DNA of 64,000 bases from Pseudomonadota bacterium (lineage in GTDB: Bacteria; Pseudomonadota; Gammaproteobacteria; Xanthomonadales; Xanthomonadaceae). A program made the position numbers and the translations under genes. The stretch's first letter is position 1. Each line of letters starts with the position of its first letter. The stretch covers positions 248,001 to 312,000 of the forward strand of contig JAKACT010000001.1 of the NCBI GenBank assembly GCA_021821195.1, read 5' to 3'. This document shows positions 43,114 to 47,829 of the stretch, piece after piece. The notes beneath the pieces are model-generated. The model was not told the origin of the DNA and did not search any database. It saw only the letters and a list, made by a program, of their open reading frames with translations.

Positions 43114-43899
43114 ATGAACCTCGATCTTTCCGGCAAACACGCGTTGGTCTGCGGTGCGTCCGAAGGCATCGGCCGCGCCGCCGCGGTGGAATTGGCGCAG
43201 CTCGGCGCCAGCGTCACCCTGCTGGCGCGCCGCGCGGACGTGCTGGGCGAGATCGCCGCGGCGCTGCCCCGCGTACACGGACAGTCACATGGTTGCCTCG
43301 CCGCCGACCTTGCCGACACCGATGCCCTGCGCGGTGCCGTGGCCGCGCTGGCGGCGCGCGCGCCGGTGCACATCCTGATCAACAACACCGGTGGCCCGCC
43401 CGGCGGCCCGGCGCACGGCGCCTCCATCGACGCCTACCTCGATGCCTTCCGCAAGCACCTGCTCGCCAACCAGACGCTGGTGCAGGCGTTGCTGCCGGGC
43501 ATGCGCGCGGCGCGCTGGGGCCGCATCGTCAACGTGATCTCGACCTCGGTGTACGAGCCGATCCCCAACCTCGGCGTGTCCAACACCATCCGCGGCGCGG
43601 TGGCCAGCTGGGCCAAGACCCTCTCGCGCGAACTCGGCGGCGACGGCATCACGGTCAACAACGTGCTGCCCGGCTACACCCGCACGCGCCGGCTGGAGCA
43701 GATCCTAGCCGACCGCAGCGCGGCCTCCGGCAAGACCCAGGACGAGGTGGCGCAGGCGATGCTGGCCACGGTGCCGGCGGGCCGCTTCGCCGAAGCCGAA
43801 GAACCCGGTGGCGTGATCGCCTTCCTGTGCAGCCCCGCCGCGGGCTACGTCAACGGCCAGTCCATCGCGGTGGACGGCGGCCGCATGCAGTCGATCTGA
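43114..43899 (+). CDS. Short-chain dehydrogenase/reductase lacking the usual Tyr/Lys
   Basis: The protein has 261 residues and the SDR Rossmann motif ALVCGASEGIGRAAAVELAQ, the NNTGG block and the C-terminal VNGQSIAVDGG. The active-site serine is in VNVISTSVYEPIPNLG. At the positions of the catalytic Tyr and Lys (YxxxK) it has S and R (SNTIR), so classic hydride-transfer chemistry is doubtful. This is a recurring divergent SDR group (EPIPNLGVSNTIRGAV). It is the first gene of the run, 4 bp before nei. Its job there is unclear. Confidence 0.85.
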   Translation: MNLDLSGKHALVCGASEGIGRAAAVELAQLGASVTLLARRADVLGEIAAALPRVHGQSHGCLAADLADTDALRGAVAALAARAPVHILINNTGGPPGGPAHGASIDAYLDAFRKHLLANQTLVQALLPGMRAARWGRIVNVISTSVYEPIPNLGVSNTIRGAVASWAKTLSRELGGDGITVNNVLPGYTRTRRLEQILADRSAASGKTQDEVAQAMLATVPAGRFAEAEEPGGVIAFLCSPAAGYVNGQSIAVDGGRMQSI

Positions 43900-43903
43900 G
43901 CCG

Positions 43904-44731
43904 ATGCCCGAAGGCCCGGAAATCCGTCGCGCCGCCGACCGCCTGGCCGCGGCGGTGGCCGGGCAAACCGTGCTCCGGGCACGGTTCGCGTTTGCGCAGC
44001 TGCAGCGTTTCGAAGGCGAGCTGGTGGGCAGCCGCATCCTCTCCATCACCCCGCGCGGCAAGGCGCTGCTGACCGCCTTCGACAACGGCTGGATGCTGTA
44101 CAGCCACAACCAGCTGTACGGCGTATGGAAGGTGGCGCTGCCGGGCCAGCGCCCGGACACCACGCGCAGCCTGCGGGTGGCGCTGGAAACGGCCAGTGCG
44201 GCGATCCTGCTGTATTCGGCTTCCGACATCGAGCTGTGGCGCAGCGACGAGATCGAGGCGCATCCGTTCCTGCAGGGGCTGGGGCCGGACGTGCTGGATC
44301 CGGCGCTGGATGTGGAGGCCGTCGCCGCGCGCCTGCTGTCGCCGGCCTTCCGCGGCCGTGCGCTCGGCGCGCTGCTGCTGGACCAAGGCTTCCTTGCCGG
44401 GATGGGCAACTACCTGCGCGCGGAGGTGCTGTTCGATGCCGGCCTGCATCCGGCCTCGCGCCCGCGCGAGCTGGATGCGGCCCAGGCCACCCGGCTGGCG
44501 CGGGCGCTGCTGGCGATCCCGCGCCACAGCTATGCCACCCGCGGCATCGAGCCCACGAAGGGCATGCGCGCCGACTACCTGGCGCACGAAGGCGAGCGCT
44601 TCCGCTTCCATGTATTCAAGCGCGAAGGCCAGCCCTGCGAGCGCTGCGGCACCCCGATCGCACGCATCGCCAGCCAGTCGCGGCCCTTGTTCCTGTGCCC
44701 GCATTGCCAGCCGTCACGCCCGCCGCAGTAA
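43904..44731 (+). CDS. nei: Endonuclease VIII (Nei)
   Basis: Nei (275 residues; E. coli 263) is a DNA glycosylase and AP lyase for oxidised pyrimidines. The catalytic N-terminus MPEGPEIRRAADRLA keeps Pro2 and Glu3. The H2TH helices (GFLAGMGNYLRAEVLFDAG) and the C-terminal zinc finger (CERCG ... CPHC) are intact. The N-terminal IRR and the pattern of the Lys/Arg void-filling region favour Nei over Fpg. It follows the SDR by 4 bp and precedes the aldehyde dehydrogenase by 9 bp. A repair enzyme within a catabolic operon is odd. Confidence 0.94.
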   Translation: MPEGPEIRRAADRLAAAVAGQTVLRARFAFAQLQRFEGELVGSRILSITPRGKALLTAFDNGWMLYSHNQLYGVWKVALPGQRPDTTRSLRVALETASAAILLYSASDIELWRSDEIEAHPFLQGLGPDVLDPALDVEAVAARLLSPAFRGRALGALLLDQGFLAGMGNYLRAEVLFDAGLHPASRPRELDAAQATRLARALLAIPRHSYATRGIEPTKGMRADYLAHEGERFRFHVFKREGQPCERCGTPIARIASQSRPLFLCPHCQPSRPPQ

Positions 44732-44740
44732 ACTGGTGGA

Positions 44741-46192
44741 ATGCGACGGTTCGGACATGTCATCGGCGCGGCCCGCGGCGAAGCGACCAGCACCCGCTGG
44801 CTGCCGGTCTTCGATCCCGCACATGCGCAACCGTATGCACAGGTCGCCAATGGCGATGCCGCCGATGTCGAGGCGGCGATTGCAGCCGCCGAAGCCGCGG
44901 CGCCGGCTTGGGCCGCGCTGCGCCCCAGCGAGCGAGCGCGCCACCTGGAACGGTTGGCCGATGCGCTGGAAGCCCAGCTCGACGCGTTCGCCCATGCCGA
45001 AGCCATCGACGCCGGCAAGCCGCTGGCGCTGGCGCGCGACATCGAGATCCCGCGGGCGATTTCCAACCTGCGCTTCTTCGCCCACGCCGCCACCCAATTC
45101 GCCAGCGAATCCCACCATGGCGAAGCCGGCCTGAACTACACCCTGCGCCTGCCGCTGGGCGTGGTGGGCTGCATCAGTCCGTGGAACCTGCCGCTGTACC
45201 TGTTCACCTGGAAGATCGCGCCGGCGCTGGCCGCCGGCAACGCGGTGGTGGCGAAGCCTTCGGAGATCACGCCCGCCACCGCCACCCTGCTCTGCCAGCT
45301 GGCGCTGGATATCGGCCTGCCGCCGGGCGTGCTCAACCTCGTCCACGGCCTGGGCCCGAACGTGGGCGAAGCGTTGGTGGCGCACCCGCGGGTCAAGGCG
45401 ATCTCGTTCACCGGCAGCACCGCGGTGGGCCGGCGCATTGCCGGCATCGCCGGGCCGCTGCTGAAGAAGGTCTCGCTGGAATTGGGCGGCAAGAACGCCA
45501 CGCTGGTGTTCGCCGACAGCGACTGGCGCGCCAACCTCGACACGCTGGTGCGCAGTGCGTTCCAGAACAGCGGGCAGATCTGCCTGTGCGGCTCGCGGCT
45601 GCTGGTGGAACGCGGCATCCATGACGAGTTCCGCGACGCCTTCGTCGAACGCGCCGGCGCGCTGCGGCTGGGCCCGCCGCTGGATCCCGACACCCAGCTA
45701 GGCCCGATGGTGTCGCAGGCCCATTTCGACAAGGTGCTGGGCTGCATCGAGCGCGCGCGCAGCGAGGGCGGCCGGGTGCTGTGCGGCGGCGAGGCGCTGG
45801 ACCACCCGGGCTGGTTCATCGCCCCCACCGTGATCGAAGGCCTGGGCCCAGGCTGCGCGACCAACCGCGAGGAAATCTTCGGCCCGGTGGTGACGCTGCA
45901 ACCCTTCGACGACGATGCCGAGGCGCTGGCGCTAGCCAACGCCTCCGACTACGGCCTGTCCGCCAGCGTGTGGACGCGCGACCTAGCCCGTGCGCATGGC
46001 ATGGCCGCGCAGCTGCGCACCGGCATCGTCTGGATCAACAGCTGGCTGATGCGCGACCTGCGCACGCCGTTCGGCGGCAGCCAGGCGTCCGGGCTCGGCC
46101 GCGAAGGCGGACTGGAAGCCATGCGCTTCTTCACCGAACCGCGCAACGTCGGCATCGCCCTTCCCCCCATTCCCCCACAAGGCAACACATGA
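44741..46192 (+). CDS. 2-aminomuconic 6-semialdehyde dehydrogenase (AmnC/NbaE-like)
   Basis: The enzyme has 483 residues and belongs to the aldehyde dehydrogenase superfamily. It shows the NAD site (ISFTGSTAVGRRIAG), the general base in LELGGKN and the nucleophile in QNSGQICLCGSRLLVE, followed by EEIFGPVV. The ISPWNLPLYLFTWKIAPALAAGN segment groups it with 2-hydroxymuconic and 2-aminomuconic semialdehyde dehydrogenases. The two downstream genes for 2-aminomuconate deaminase and 3-hydroxyanthranilate dioxygenase support the aminomuconate substrate. It overlaps the carbonic anhydrase gene by 4 bp. Confidence 0.88.
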   Translation: MRRFGHVIGAARGEATSTRWLPVFDPAHAQPYAQVANGDAADVEAAIAAAEAAAPAWAALRPSERARHLERLADALEAQLDAFAHAEAIDAGKPLALARDIEIPRAISNLRFFAHAATQFASESHHGEAGLNYTLRLPLGVVGCISPWNLPLYLFTWKIAPALAAGNAVVAKPSEITPATATLLCQLALDIGLPPGVLNLVHGLGPNVGEALVAHPRVKAISFTGSTAVGRRIAGIAGPLLKKVSLELGGKNATLVFADSDWRANLDTLVRSAFQNSGQICLCGSRLLVERGIHDEFRDAFVERAGALRLGPPLDPDTQLGPMVSQAHFDKVLGCIERARSEGGRVLCGGEALDHPGWFIAPTVIEGLGPGCATNREEIFGPVVTLQPFDDDAEALALANASDYGLSASVWTRDLARAHGMAAQLRTGIVWINSWLMRDLRTPFGGSQASGLGREGGLEAMRFFTEPRNVGIALPPIPPQGNT

Positions 46193-46854
46193 AAAAGGAA
46201 CTCGACACCCTGCTGCGCAACAACCAGGGCTGGGCCGAACGCGTCACCCGCGAGGACCCGACCTTCTTCGAACGCCTGTCCAAGCAGCAGGCACCCAAAT
46301 ATTTGTGGATCGGCTGCTCGGACTCGCGCGTGCCGGCCAACCAGGTCATCGACCTGGTGCCGGGCGAGGTGTTCGTCCATCGCAACATCGCCAACGTGAT
46401 GGTGCATACCGACCTCAACTGCATGTCCACCATCCAGTTCGCGGTCGACGTCCTCAAGGTGCGGCACATCCTGGTGGTGGGGCACTACGGCTGCGGCGGC
46501 GTCGGTGCGGCCCTGCACGGCACCCGGCTGGGGCTGGCCGACAACTGGATCCGCCATGTCGGCGACGTGGCGCAAAAACATGCCGGACTGCTAGGGCAGC
46601 TCCCGGCGGAAGCGCGCCACGACACCCTGTGCGAGCTCAACGCCATCGAACAGGCGGAAAACGTCTGCCTGACCACCGTGGTGCAGGACGCCTGGGCGCG
46701 CGGCCAGCAGCTGGCAGTGCACGGCTGGGTCTACAGCCTGGCCGATGGCAAGGTGCGCGAGCTGGCGATGGACGTCGATGCGCCGGAGGCGCTCGCCTCC
46801 GTTTACGCCGCGGCCATCGCGAGCGTGCGCGGGCGTCGCGGGATCAGCGGGTGA
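46189..46854 (+). CDS. can: Beta-class carbonic anhydrase
   Basis: The enzyme has 221 residues and interconverts CO2 and bicarbonate. Zinc ligands are C43 in IGCSDSRVPA, H99 and C102 in VVGHYGCGG, with the Asp45-Arg47 dyad. It resembles E. coli Can in length and motifs. It lies between the aminomuconate-semialdehyde dehydrogenase and deaminase genes and overlaps both (ATGA at 46189-46192 and GTGA at 46851-46854). The kynurenine branch includes a decarboxylation, so rapid CO2 hydration might be the reason, but that is an inference. Confidence 0.94.
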   Translation: MKKELDTLLRNNQGWAERVTREDPTFFERLSKQQAPKYLWIGCSDSRVPANQVIDLVPGEVFVHRNIANVMVHTDLNCMSTIQFAVDVLKVRHILVVGHYGCGGVGAALHGTRLGLADNWIRHVGDVAQKHAGLLGQLPAEARHDTLCELNAIEQAENVCLTTVVQDAWARGQQLAVHGWVYSLADGKVRELAMDVDAPEALASVYAAAIASVRGRRGISG

Positions 46855-47279
46855 CGCTCCCCGGCATCCATGCCGCCGCCGCGCCCAAGGCGGTAGGCCA
46901 CTACCCACATGCGCGCCGCGTGGGTGGCCTGCTGTTCCTGTCCGGCATCGGCCCGCGCAATCCCGCCGATGACTCCATCCCCGGTAACGACTACTTCGCC
47001 GACGGGCGCCTGCGCGGTTACGACATCGAGGCACAGGCGCGCGCGGTGCTGGCGAACGTGCGCGCGGTGCTGGAAGCCAGCGGCGCGCGCTGGGAGGACC
47101 TGGTCGACGTGACCGTGTTCCTGACCGACATGGCACGCGACTTCCGGGCCTGGAACGCGGTCTGGGCCGAGCATTTCCCGGATCCGGCCAGCGCGCCCTG
47201 CCGCACCACCGTCGGCATCACCGCGCTGCCCACCCCGATCGCCATCGAACTCAAGTGCATCGCCCGGATCGAGGACTGA
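46851..47279 (+). CDS. 2-aminomuconate deaminase, RidA family (AmnD/NbaF-like)
   Basis: The protein has 142 residues with the RidA/YjgF fold: [54 protein letters not shown] and the late [14 protein letters not shown]. The conserved Arg of RidA-type imine hydrolysis is at PCRTTVGI. Known 2-aminomuconate deaminases of Pseudomonas (AmnD, NbaF) are RidA-family proteins of this length. It starts with GTG, overlapping the carbonic anhydrase stop in GTGA. It is 4 bp before the dioxygenase gene. Confidence 0.88.
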
Positions 47280-47283
47280 AGCC

Positions 47284-47829
47284 ATGTTGCCCGCCGCTTT
47301 CAACCTGCACGCCTGGATCGAGGAGCACCGCCACCTGCTGCAGCCGCCGGTGGGCAACAAGTGCATCGTCCAGGACGACTTCATCGTGATGGTGGTCGGC
47401 GGGCCGAACGCGCGCACCGACTACCACTACGAGGAAGGGCCCGAGTGGTTCTACCAGCTGGAAGGCGAGATGGTGCTGCGGGTGCAGGAGGACTTCGACG
47501 GCGAGCGCGGCACGCTGCGCGACATCCCGATCCGTGCCGGCGAGGTCTTCTACCTGCCGCCGCGGGTGCCGCATTCGCCGCAGCGCATGCCGGGGTCGGT
47601 CGGGCTGGTGATCGAGCGCAAGCGCCTGCCGCACGAGGACGACGCGCTGATGTGGTTCTGCGTGGCCTGCAACCACCGGCTGTACGCGGACTTCTTCCAT
47701 CTGGTCGACATCGAGCAGGACTTCCTGCGGGTGTTCGAGACGTTCTATCGCGACGACCACCTGCGCACCTGCAAGCAGTGCGGCACCCTCAACCCGCGGC
47801 CGGGCCGCTACGAGCAACCGGCGGAATAG
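47284..47829 (+). CDS. nbaC: 3-hydroxyanthranilate 3,4-dioxygenase
   Basis: The enzyme has 181 residues and opens the ring of 3-hydroxyanthranilate to 2-amino-3-carboxymuconate semialdehyde. The iron site is formed by [19 protein letters not shown] and the His in [11 protein letters not shown]. The C-terminal rubredoxin-like four-cysteine metal site is complete (WFCVACN and [11 protein letters not shown]), as in bacterial HAAO enzymes. It is the last gene of the operon. The ring-opening product can go to quinolinate (NAD) or, after a decarboxylase not seen here, to 2-aminomuconate. Confidence 0.96.

Follow-up and report, generated by a model that had tools for sequence, protein, structure and literature searches.

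A run of predicted kynurenine-pathway genes that includes a beta-carbonic anhydrase was analyzed in a 64,000-nucleotide stretch of a Xanthomonadaceae genome (here, the window; positions 248001 to 312000 of contig C4), together with the cluster to which these genes belong in other members of the family. The assembly totals 2.92 Mb and is 98% complete, and its closest named relatives are Thermomonas species. Six genes occupy positions 43114 to 47829 of the window, all on the forward strand, and are followed by an inverted repeat:

43114 to 43899, + strand: short-chain dehydrogenase (SDR), which accompanies the third gene of this list in relatives
43904 to 44731, + strand: endonuclease VIII (Nei); NF007763, 365.7 bits against a cut-off of 252
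44741 to 46192, + strand: 2-aminomuconate-6-semialdehyde dehydrogenase (AMSDH); PF00171, best solved match 4u3w
46189 to 46854, + strand: beta-carbonic anhydrase (CA) of the Escherichia coli Can type; NF007756, PF00484, motifs CSDSR and HYGC
46851 to 47279, + strand, GTG start: RidA-fold protein, probably 2-aminomuconate deaminase; PF01042, 6izh
47284 to 47829, + strand: 3-hydroxyanthranilate 3,4-dioxygenase (HAO); TIGR03037, NF009763
47878 to 47905, no strand assigned: inverted repeat of 12 pairs between HAO and the convergent pnp gene, likely a shared terminator

The last four genes are packed as the initial annotation, made from the letters of the window alone, had described: AMSDH overlaps CA, and CA overlaps the RidA gene, by 4 bases each (ATGA and GTGA), and 4 bases separate the RidA gene from HAO. 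The run begins two genes earlier than that annotation recognized, however, with SDR and Nei directly upstream on the same strand (gaps of 4 bases between SDR and Nei and 9 bases between Nei and AMSDH). CA is probably co-transcribed with its neighbors in the run. The operon had also been said to end at a terminator. The inverted repeat 3' of HAO agrees with this, but a terminator scan scored it on the reverse strand only, and the two terminator-like matches in the region equal the mean of shuffled sequences (2.0), such that the scan alone is not significant. A T run inside the stem could permit termination in both directions. The same scan found no promoter-like sites in the region.

Two of the enzymes are assigned by curated cut-offs. 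HAO exceeds two NCBIfam equivalog cut-offs (TIGR03037, 234.1 bits against 145.95; NF009763, 247.5 bits against 220), also matches solved relatives and, by motif reading, carries two C-terminal CxxC pairs. CA scores 290.8 bits on NF007756, the equivalog model of the Can type, against a cut-off of 251, with CSDSR at position 43 and HYGC at position 99, which we take to be the zinc-site motifs. The AMSDH and deaminase assignments follow from the best solved matches. For the dehydrogenase, this is the AMSDH structure 4u3w (465.9 bits), followed by 7bzv and the AMSDH 4npi; for the RidA-fold protein, it is the 2-aminomuconate deaminase 6izh (78.8 bits). Among the NCBIfam matches listed for the dehydrogenase (the best 25 of 41), none reaches its cut-off, and the same holds for the models listed for the RidA-fold protein, which scores 90.5 bits on TIGR00004 (cut-off, 106.25).

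The decarboxylase ACMSD, kynureninase (KynU), and kynurenine monooxygenase (KMO), which are missing from the run and had initially been considered to be encoded elsewhere or absent, are encoded elsewhere, at C4:116994-120611. ACMSD (116994 to 118004) is directly followed by KynU and KMO, the latter ending at 120611, and lies 178.8 kb from HAO on the same contig. It scores 396.1 bits to the solved ACMSD 2wm1, matches PF04909, and contains the motifs HAH, HPWD, HGGG, and GTDYP, which presumably form the metal site; no NCBIfam model matched it at a threshold of 0.001. Three further PF04909 matches are present in the genome (L004, L005, and L006). KynU scores 468.8 bits on TIGR01814 (cut-off, 246.4), and KMO scores 507.6 bits to 5fn0. 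The absence of ACMSD, which would have pointed to another substrate for the dehydrogenase, is therefore not the case in this genome.

The genes upstream and those for NAD synthesis were also recovered. A probable tryptophan 2,3-dioxygenase (TDO) on contig C6 matches TIGR03036 over the full profile length with 381.9 bits, just under the cut-off of 390.7. It is located (L009:8962-9849) away from the other kynurenine genes, near open reading frames (ORFs) read as a POT-type transporter, HPPD, and homogentisate dioxygenase. NadA, on contig C13, is above its curated cut-off and is followed by NadB, which is just below both of its cut-offs (521.2 against 528 and 444.7 against 452.75); NadC, on C4, is above its cut-off. 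Thus, all the genes that the initial annotation proposed to look for outside the window (ACMSD, kynU, kmo, and nadC/nadB) have matches, and the matches to ACMSD, KynU, KMO, TDO, NadA, NadB, and NadC rule out that the pathway is absent. Because NadA, NadB, and NadC are matched besides ACMSD, the kynurenine branch is more likely degradative here; NAD would probably be obtainable from aspartate, leaving this branch free for degradation. In a genus sample of five genomes, all with HAO and ACMSD, NadA is patchy, being matched in G000 (this genome), G081, and G107 and not in G051 and G131. A KynB-type formamidase (PF04199) has no match in this genome, despite the matches to TDO, KynU, and KMO; other formamidase types were not searched for. 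A PF04199 match was found in 40 of the 149 family genomes surveyed and in none of the other 109, this genome included.

This survey of 149 genomes, together with gene-by-gene reading of 66 family loci and of 44 loci from a named collection (some genomes are in both locus sets), places the split in context. HAO was detected in 139 of the genomes, beta-CA in 144, NadA in 43 (with no NadA match in 106), and ACMSD in 103 at threshold, of which 102 are used below, the weak match of G118 (27% identity) being counted as lacking ACMSD. Of the 102 genomes, 87 have ACMSD no more than 10 kb downstream from HAO (86 plus G076, where the two touch), six have it farther along the same contig (this genome, G046, G075, G102, G106, and G127), and nine have it on another contig; the gap in this genome is therefore a local rearrangement. 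The complete order SDR-AMSDH-CA-RidA-HAO-ACMSD-KynU-KMO was read in 29 of the 66 family loci, with contig ends cutting some of the others, and in 25 of the 44 loci of the named collection, and the shorter order CA-HAO-KynU-KMO was read in 15 of the 66. One locus, L102, an extra stretch of G034, had no match at all. In most ACMSD-bearing relatives, CA and ACMSD thus share one cluster, which is not visible from the window alone. HAO is followed by pnp in the window and in L043/L184, L044/L146, L142, L144, and L145, and by ACMSD in other Thermomonas loci (L045/L147, L046, and L176). This mixture of pnp and ACMSD next to HAO identifies the split as a rearrangement inside the genus. The cluster is split or loosened in several genera.

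The same loci bear on the specificity of the two enzymes that are below the curated cut-offs. That the dehydrogenase and the RidA-fold protein act on substrates outside the kynurenine pathway would accord with those scores but is highly improbable, given that the best solved matches of the two are an AMSDH and a 2-aminomuconate deaminase and that each is present in 45 of the 66 family loci, the RidA-fold protein at a position conserved among relatives. In addition, the 17 loci that have CA and lack RidA consist of the 15 with CA-HAO-KynU-KMO, one with CA-HAO, and one with SDR-CA-HAO. The remaining two genes of the run differ in how regularly they recur. SDR is found near AMSDH in 40 of the 45 family loci with AMSDH, as well as in three of five AMSDH loci outside the family, and may catalyze a step after 2-aminomuconate. 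Nei, present in 10 of 59 family loci read, is probably a passenger.

The position of CA within the run had led to the proposal that it belongs to the pathway and hydrates the CO2 that ACMSD releases. ACMSD does exist in this genome, CA is located between AMSDH and RidA in all 43 family loci that hold the three genes, and CA is found beside HAO slightly more often in family genomes with ACMSD (99 of 102) than in those without it (32 of 37). However, these 32 genomes are themselves difficult to reconcile with the proposal, because CA has stayed beside HAO where there is no ACMSD to serve. In 29 of them, the gap between the CA and HAO matches is 103 to 341 bp (median, 136), which is too small for a RidA gene. 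Conversely, in Thermomonas flagellata (G131, L147) and G009, SDR-AMSDH-RidA-HAO-ACMSD-KynU-KMO is retained, and neither genome has a beta-CA or alpha-CA match, both falling outside the 18 family genomes with an alpha-CA match. In the T. flagellata locus (L147/L045; 99% complete genome), 117 bp separate the AMSDH and RidA matches, at the site that CA occupies in relatives.

Loci outside the family are similar in this respect. Among 370 genomes drawn from the class, 17 have HAO, and 13 of these do not belong to the family. ACMSD was found in 9 of these 13 loci and CA in none, within the stretches read, some of which are cut by contig ends; one is a complete SDR-AMSDH-RidA-HAO-ACMSD-KynU-KMO cluster. 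Five Streptomyces loci likewise contain AMSDH, RidA, HAO, and ACMSD and no CA. Furthermore, the CO2 from a single pathway is small next to respiratory CO2. Across the family and outgroup loci, then, the presence of CA in the cluster does not track that of ACMSD. The link between CA and the CO2 of ACMSD is not supported, and a dedicated role of this kind is very unlikely.

The outgroup clusters without CA also indicate that the cluster probably existed before CA became part of it. A quick tree of 62 rows, built from HAO, KynU, and KMO, has 22 of its 59 inner branches open and omits 18 of 80 rows that have only HAO of the three genes. The earliest family branch in this tree is G041, which has HAO-ACMSD-KynU-KMO, with no CA in the upstream part that its contig covers. 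In the place of CA, this locus (L086) has, immediately 5' of HAO, an apparent TetR-type regulator and an apparent acyl-CoA-binding protein, both named by sequence reading. Five ACMSD changes within the family are counted on the tree; the counts carry no direction, which was inferred from the outgroups. Every sampled descendant of three of the changes has CA next to HAO; after the fourth, one of three rows does (L094; not L050, with L140 undecided), and after the fifth, CA is not next to HAO (L099).

The neighbor beside which CA is usually found is HAO. CA occupies this place in most relatives: among the 139 family genomes that have HAO, the two genes lie side by side in 131, which represent 49 of 51 genera. 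For 125 of the 131, this was established by coordinates (CA 5' of HAO, in the same orientation), and for six by direct reading (G001, G011, G040, G049, G053, and G130). Eight genomes depart from this arrangement: in four, all from one genus, CA and HAO are on separate contigs (one of these, G110, has a contig that begins 234 bp before HAO, such that adjacency is not decidable); G009, G059, and G131 have no beta-CA match; and in G041, the CA match is only weak and no CA is present in the 1.67 kb upstream of HAO to the contig end.

This adjacency raises the alternative that CA is tied to HAO or to the NAD branch. One CO2 is released per 3-hydroxyanthranilate in either branch, by ACMSD or by NadC; the cell might instead require CA and HAO to be expressed from one promoter for some other cause. 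The spread over 49 genera fits this alternative, as do the persistence of the adjacency in one or more descendants of four of the five ACMSD changes and its occurrence in 26 of the genomes located by coordinates, none of which matches ACMSD or NadA. The alternative is nevertheless quite unlikely, because the HAO clusters of G131, G009, and G059 have no beta-CA match, CA is present in 8 of the 10 family genomes without HAO (the remaining two are 71% and 75% complete), and CA and HAO are on different contigs in the four genomes mentioned above.

Moreover, other neighbors of HAO are widely retained as well. Among the 66 family loci, CA was found in 60, asnS (asparaginyl-tRNA synthetase) in 47, and sbcB (exonuclease I) in 42. 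These are direct counts, used in place of automated neighbor picking, which misses genes and recovered HAO itself in 48 of the 66. The asnS gene, where present, is always located 5' of HAO in the same orientation, at a median distance of 6.0 kb, and 8 of the 19 loci without it have less than 5.5 kb upstream. Other recurring ORFs are an FMN-binding/PaiB-like protein, named by sequence reading (35 loci), an unnamed small protein (45 loci), and an unnamed 297-residue ORF (54 loci) that is perhaps a shadow frame. Because asnS and sbcB are widely kept, the CA-HAO adjacency may reflect conservation of a shared neighborhood; a special coupling could exist but is not needed to account for it, and a special reason for the retention of CA becomes less likely. 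The lineage of the window seems to have left the asnS-sbcB neighborhood of the cluster.

CA in this genome is probably a housekeeping, general Can-type enzyme embedded in an old cluster, which is the best reading of its score and of its being the single beta-CA detected. Neither a second beta-CA nor an alpha-CA match was detected there; gamma-CA and bicarbonate transporters were not searched for, in this genome or in those discussed next. According to part of a published account, CA knockouts of E. coli, Ralstonia eutropha, and yeast do not grow in ambient air, a failure that is ascribed there to housekeeping carboxylases that need bicarbonate (PMC3364446). CA shares with the Can/YadF-type housekeeping enzymes the NF007756 score, the CSDSR and HYGC motifs, and the status of sole beta-CA found; it differs from them in lying within a catabolic run, where it overlaps each neighbor by 4 bases.

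Several observations weigh against the housekeeping role. G131, G009, and G059, which are 99 to 100% complete, have no beta-CA or alpha-CA match, so CA is not indispensable in the family. In addition, CA, with 60 of 66 loci, recurs more regularly than asnS (47) or sbcB (42), although CA is closer to HAO and several stretches are short, and CA and HAO have relocated jointly in the window, L043, and L044 (neither L043 nor L044 has asnS upstream). The greater constancy and the joint move leave some room for a pathway-linked reason for the presence of CA. One such reason would be a functional coupling of CA to 3-hydroxyanthranilate oxidation itself, through co-expression, protein contact, or a moonlighting reaction. 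This coupling, which is quite unlikely, would explain why CA accompanies HAO in 49 of 51 genera and why the pair has outlasted the loss of degradative genes in several lineages. In a much more speculative version, CA would fill a missing hydrolase step, such as that of the formamidase, given that no KynB-family match is present here; G131, which matches neither CA nor the KynB family, speaks against CA as a formamidase stand-in.

Taken together, the run is quite likely part of the lower, degradative kynurenine pathway in a split cluster, with CA as a general enzyme that is not dedicated to the CO2 of ACMSD. Under this explanation, HAO would open the ring of 3-hydroxyanthranilate, and ACMSD, encoded about 179 kb away with KynU and KMO, would decarboxylate the product; AMSDH would then oxidize the semialdehyde, and the RidA-fold deaminase would take ammonia off 2-aminomuconate. 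CA, supplying bicarbonate to carboxylases, would have entered the cluster, which probably predates it, between AMSDH and RidA at an early stage of the family, and would mostly have been kept there since. In this Thermomonas lineage, the cluster would have been broken between HAO and ACMSD, with its front half now next to pnp.

The proposed chemistry has a close parallel in the nba/onb 2-nitrobenzoate pathway, which uses the same four enzymes as the lower kynurenine pathway (HAO, ACMSD, AMSDH, and 2-aminomuconate deaminase). In part of its text, a study of the onb cluster of Cupriavidus assigns these four steps to OnbC, OnbD, OnbE, and OnbF (PMC5817917). By analogy, the 2-aminomuconate route through these enzymes is the most likely one here. 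Unlike in onb, the gene set in this genome includes a beta-CA and SDR, and ACMSD is apart with KynU and KMO. A kynurenine route to NAD in Xanthomonadales was reportedly described by Lima et al. in 2009 (cited in PMC10143591 and PMC4217691). The HAO-KynU-KMO core of that route is shared with this genome, and the lack of a NadA match in 106 of the 149 family genomes is in keeping with the route; this genome differs in matching NadA, NadB, and NadC plus ACMSD, such that its branch appears more likely degradative. The term "carbonic anhydrase" does not occur in the main texts of PMC5817917, PMC4217691, or PMC3568101, and no published account of CA with these genes was found in the open literature; the association may thus be new, which is stated with reserve.

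These findings show how relatives can act as a natural experiment, in this case correcting a plausible but unsupported account of an anhydrase for the CO2 of ACMSD, and the apparently missing decarboxylase proves to be the result of a split cluster. What the family presents is an ordinary pathway, a family-wide gene order, and one small unexplained linkage, that between CA and HAO.

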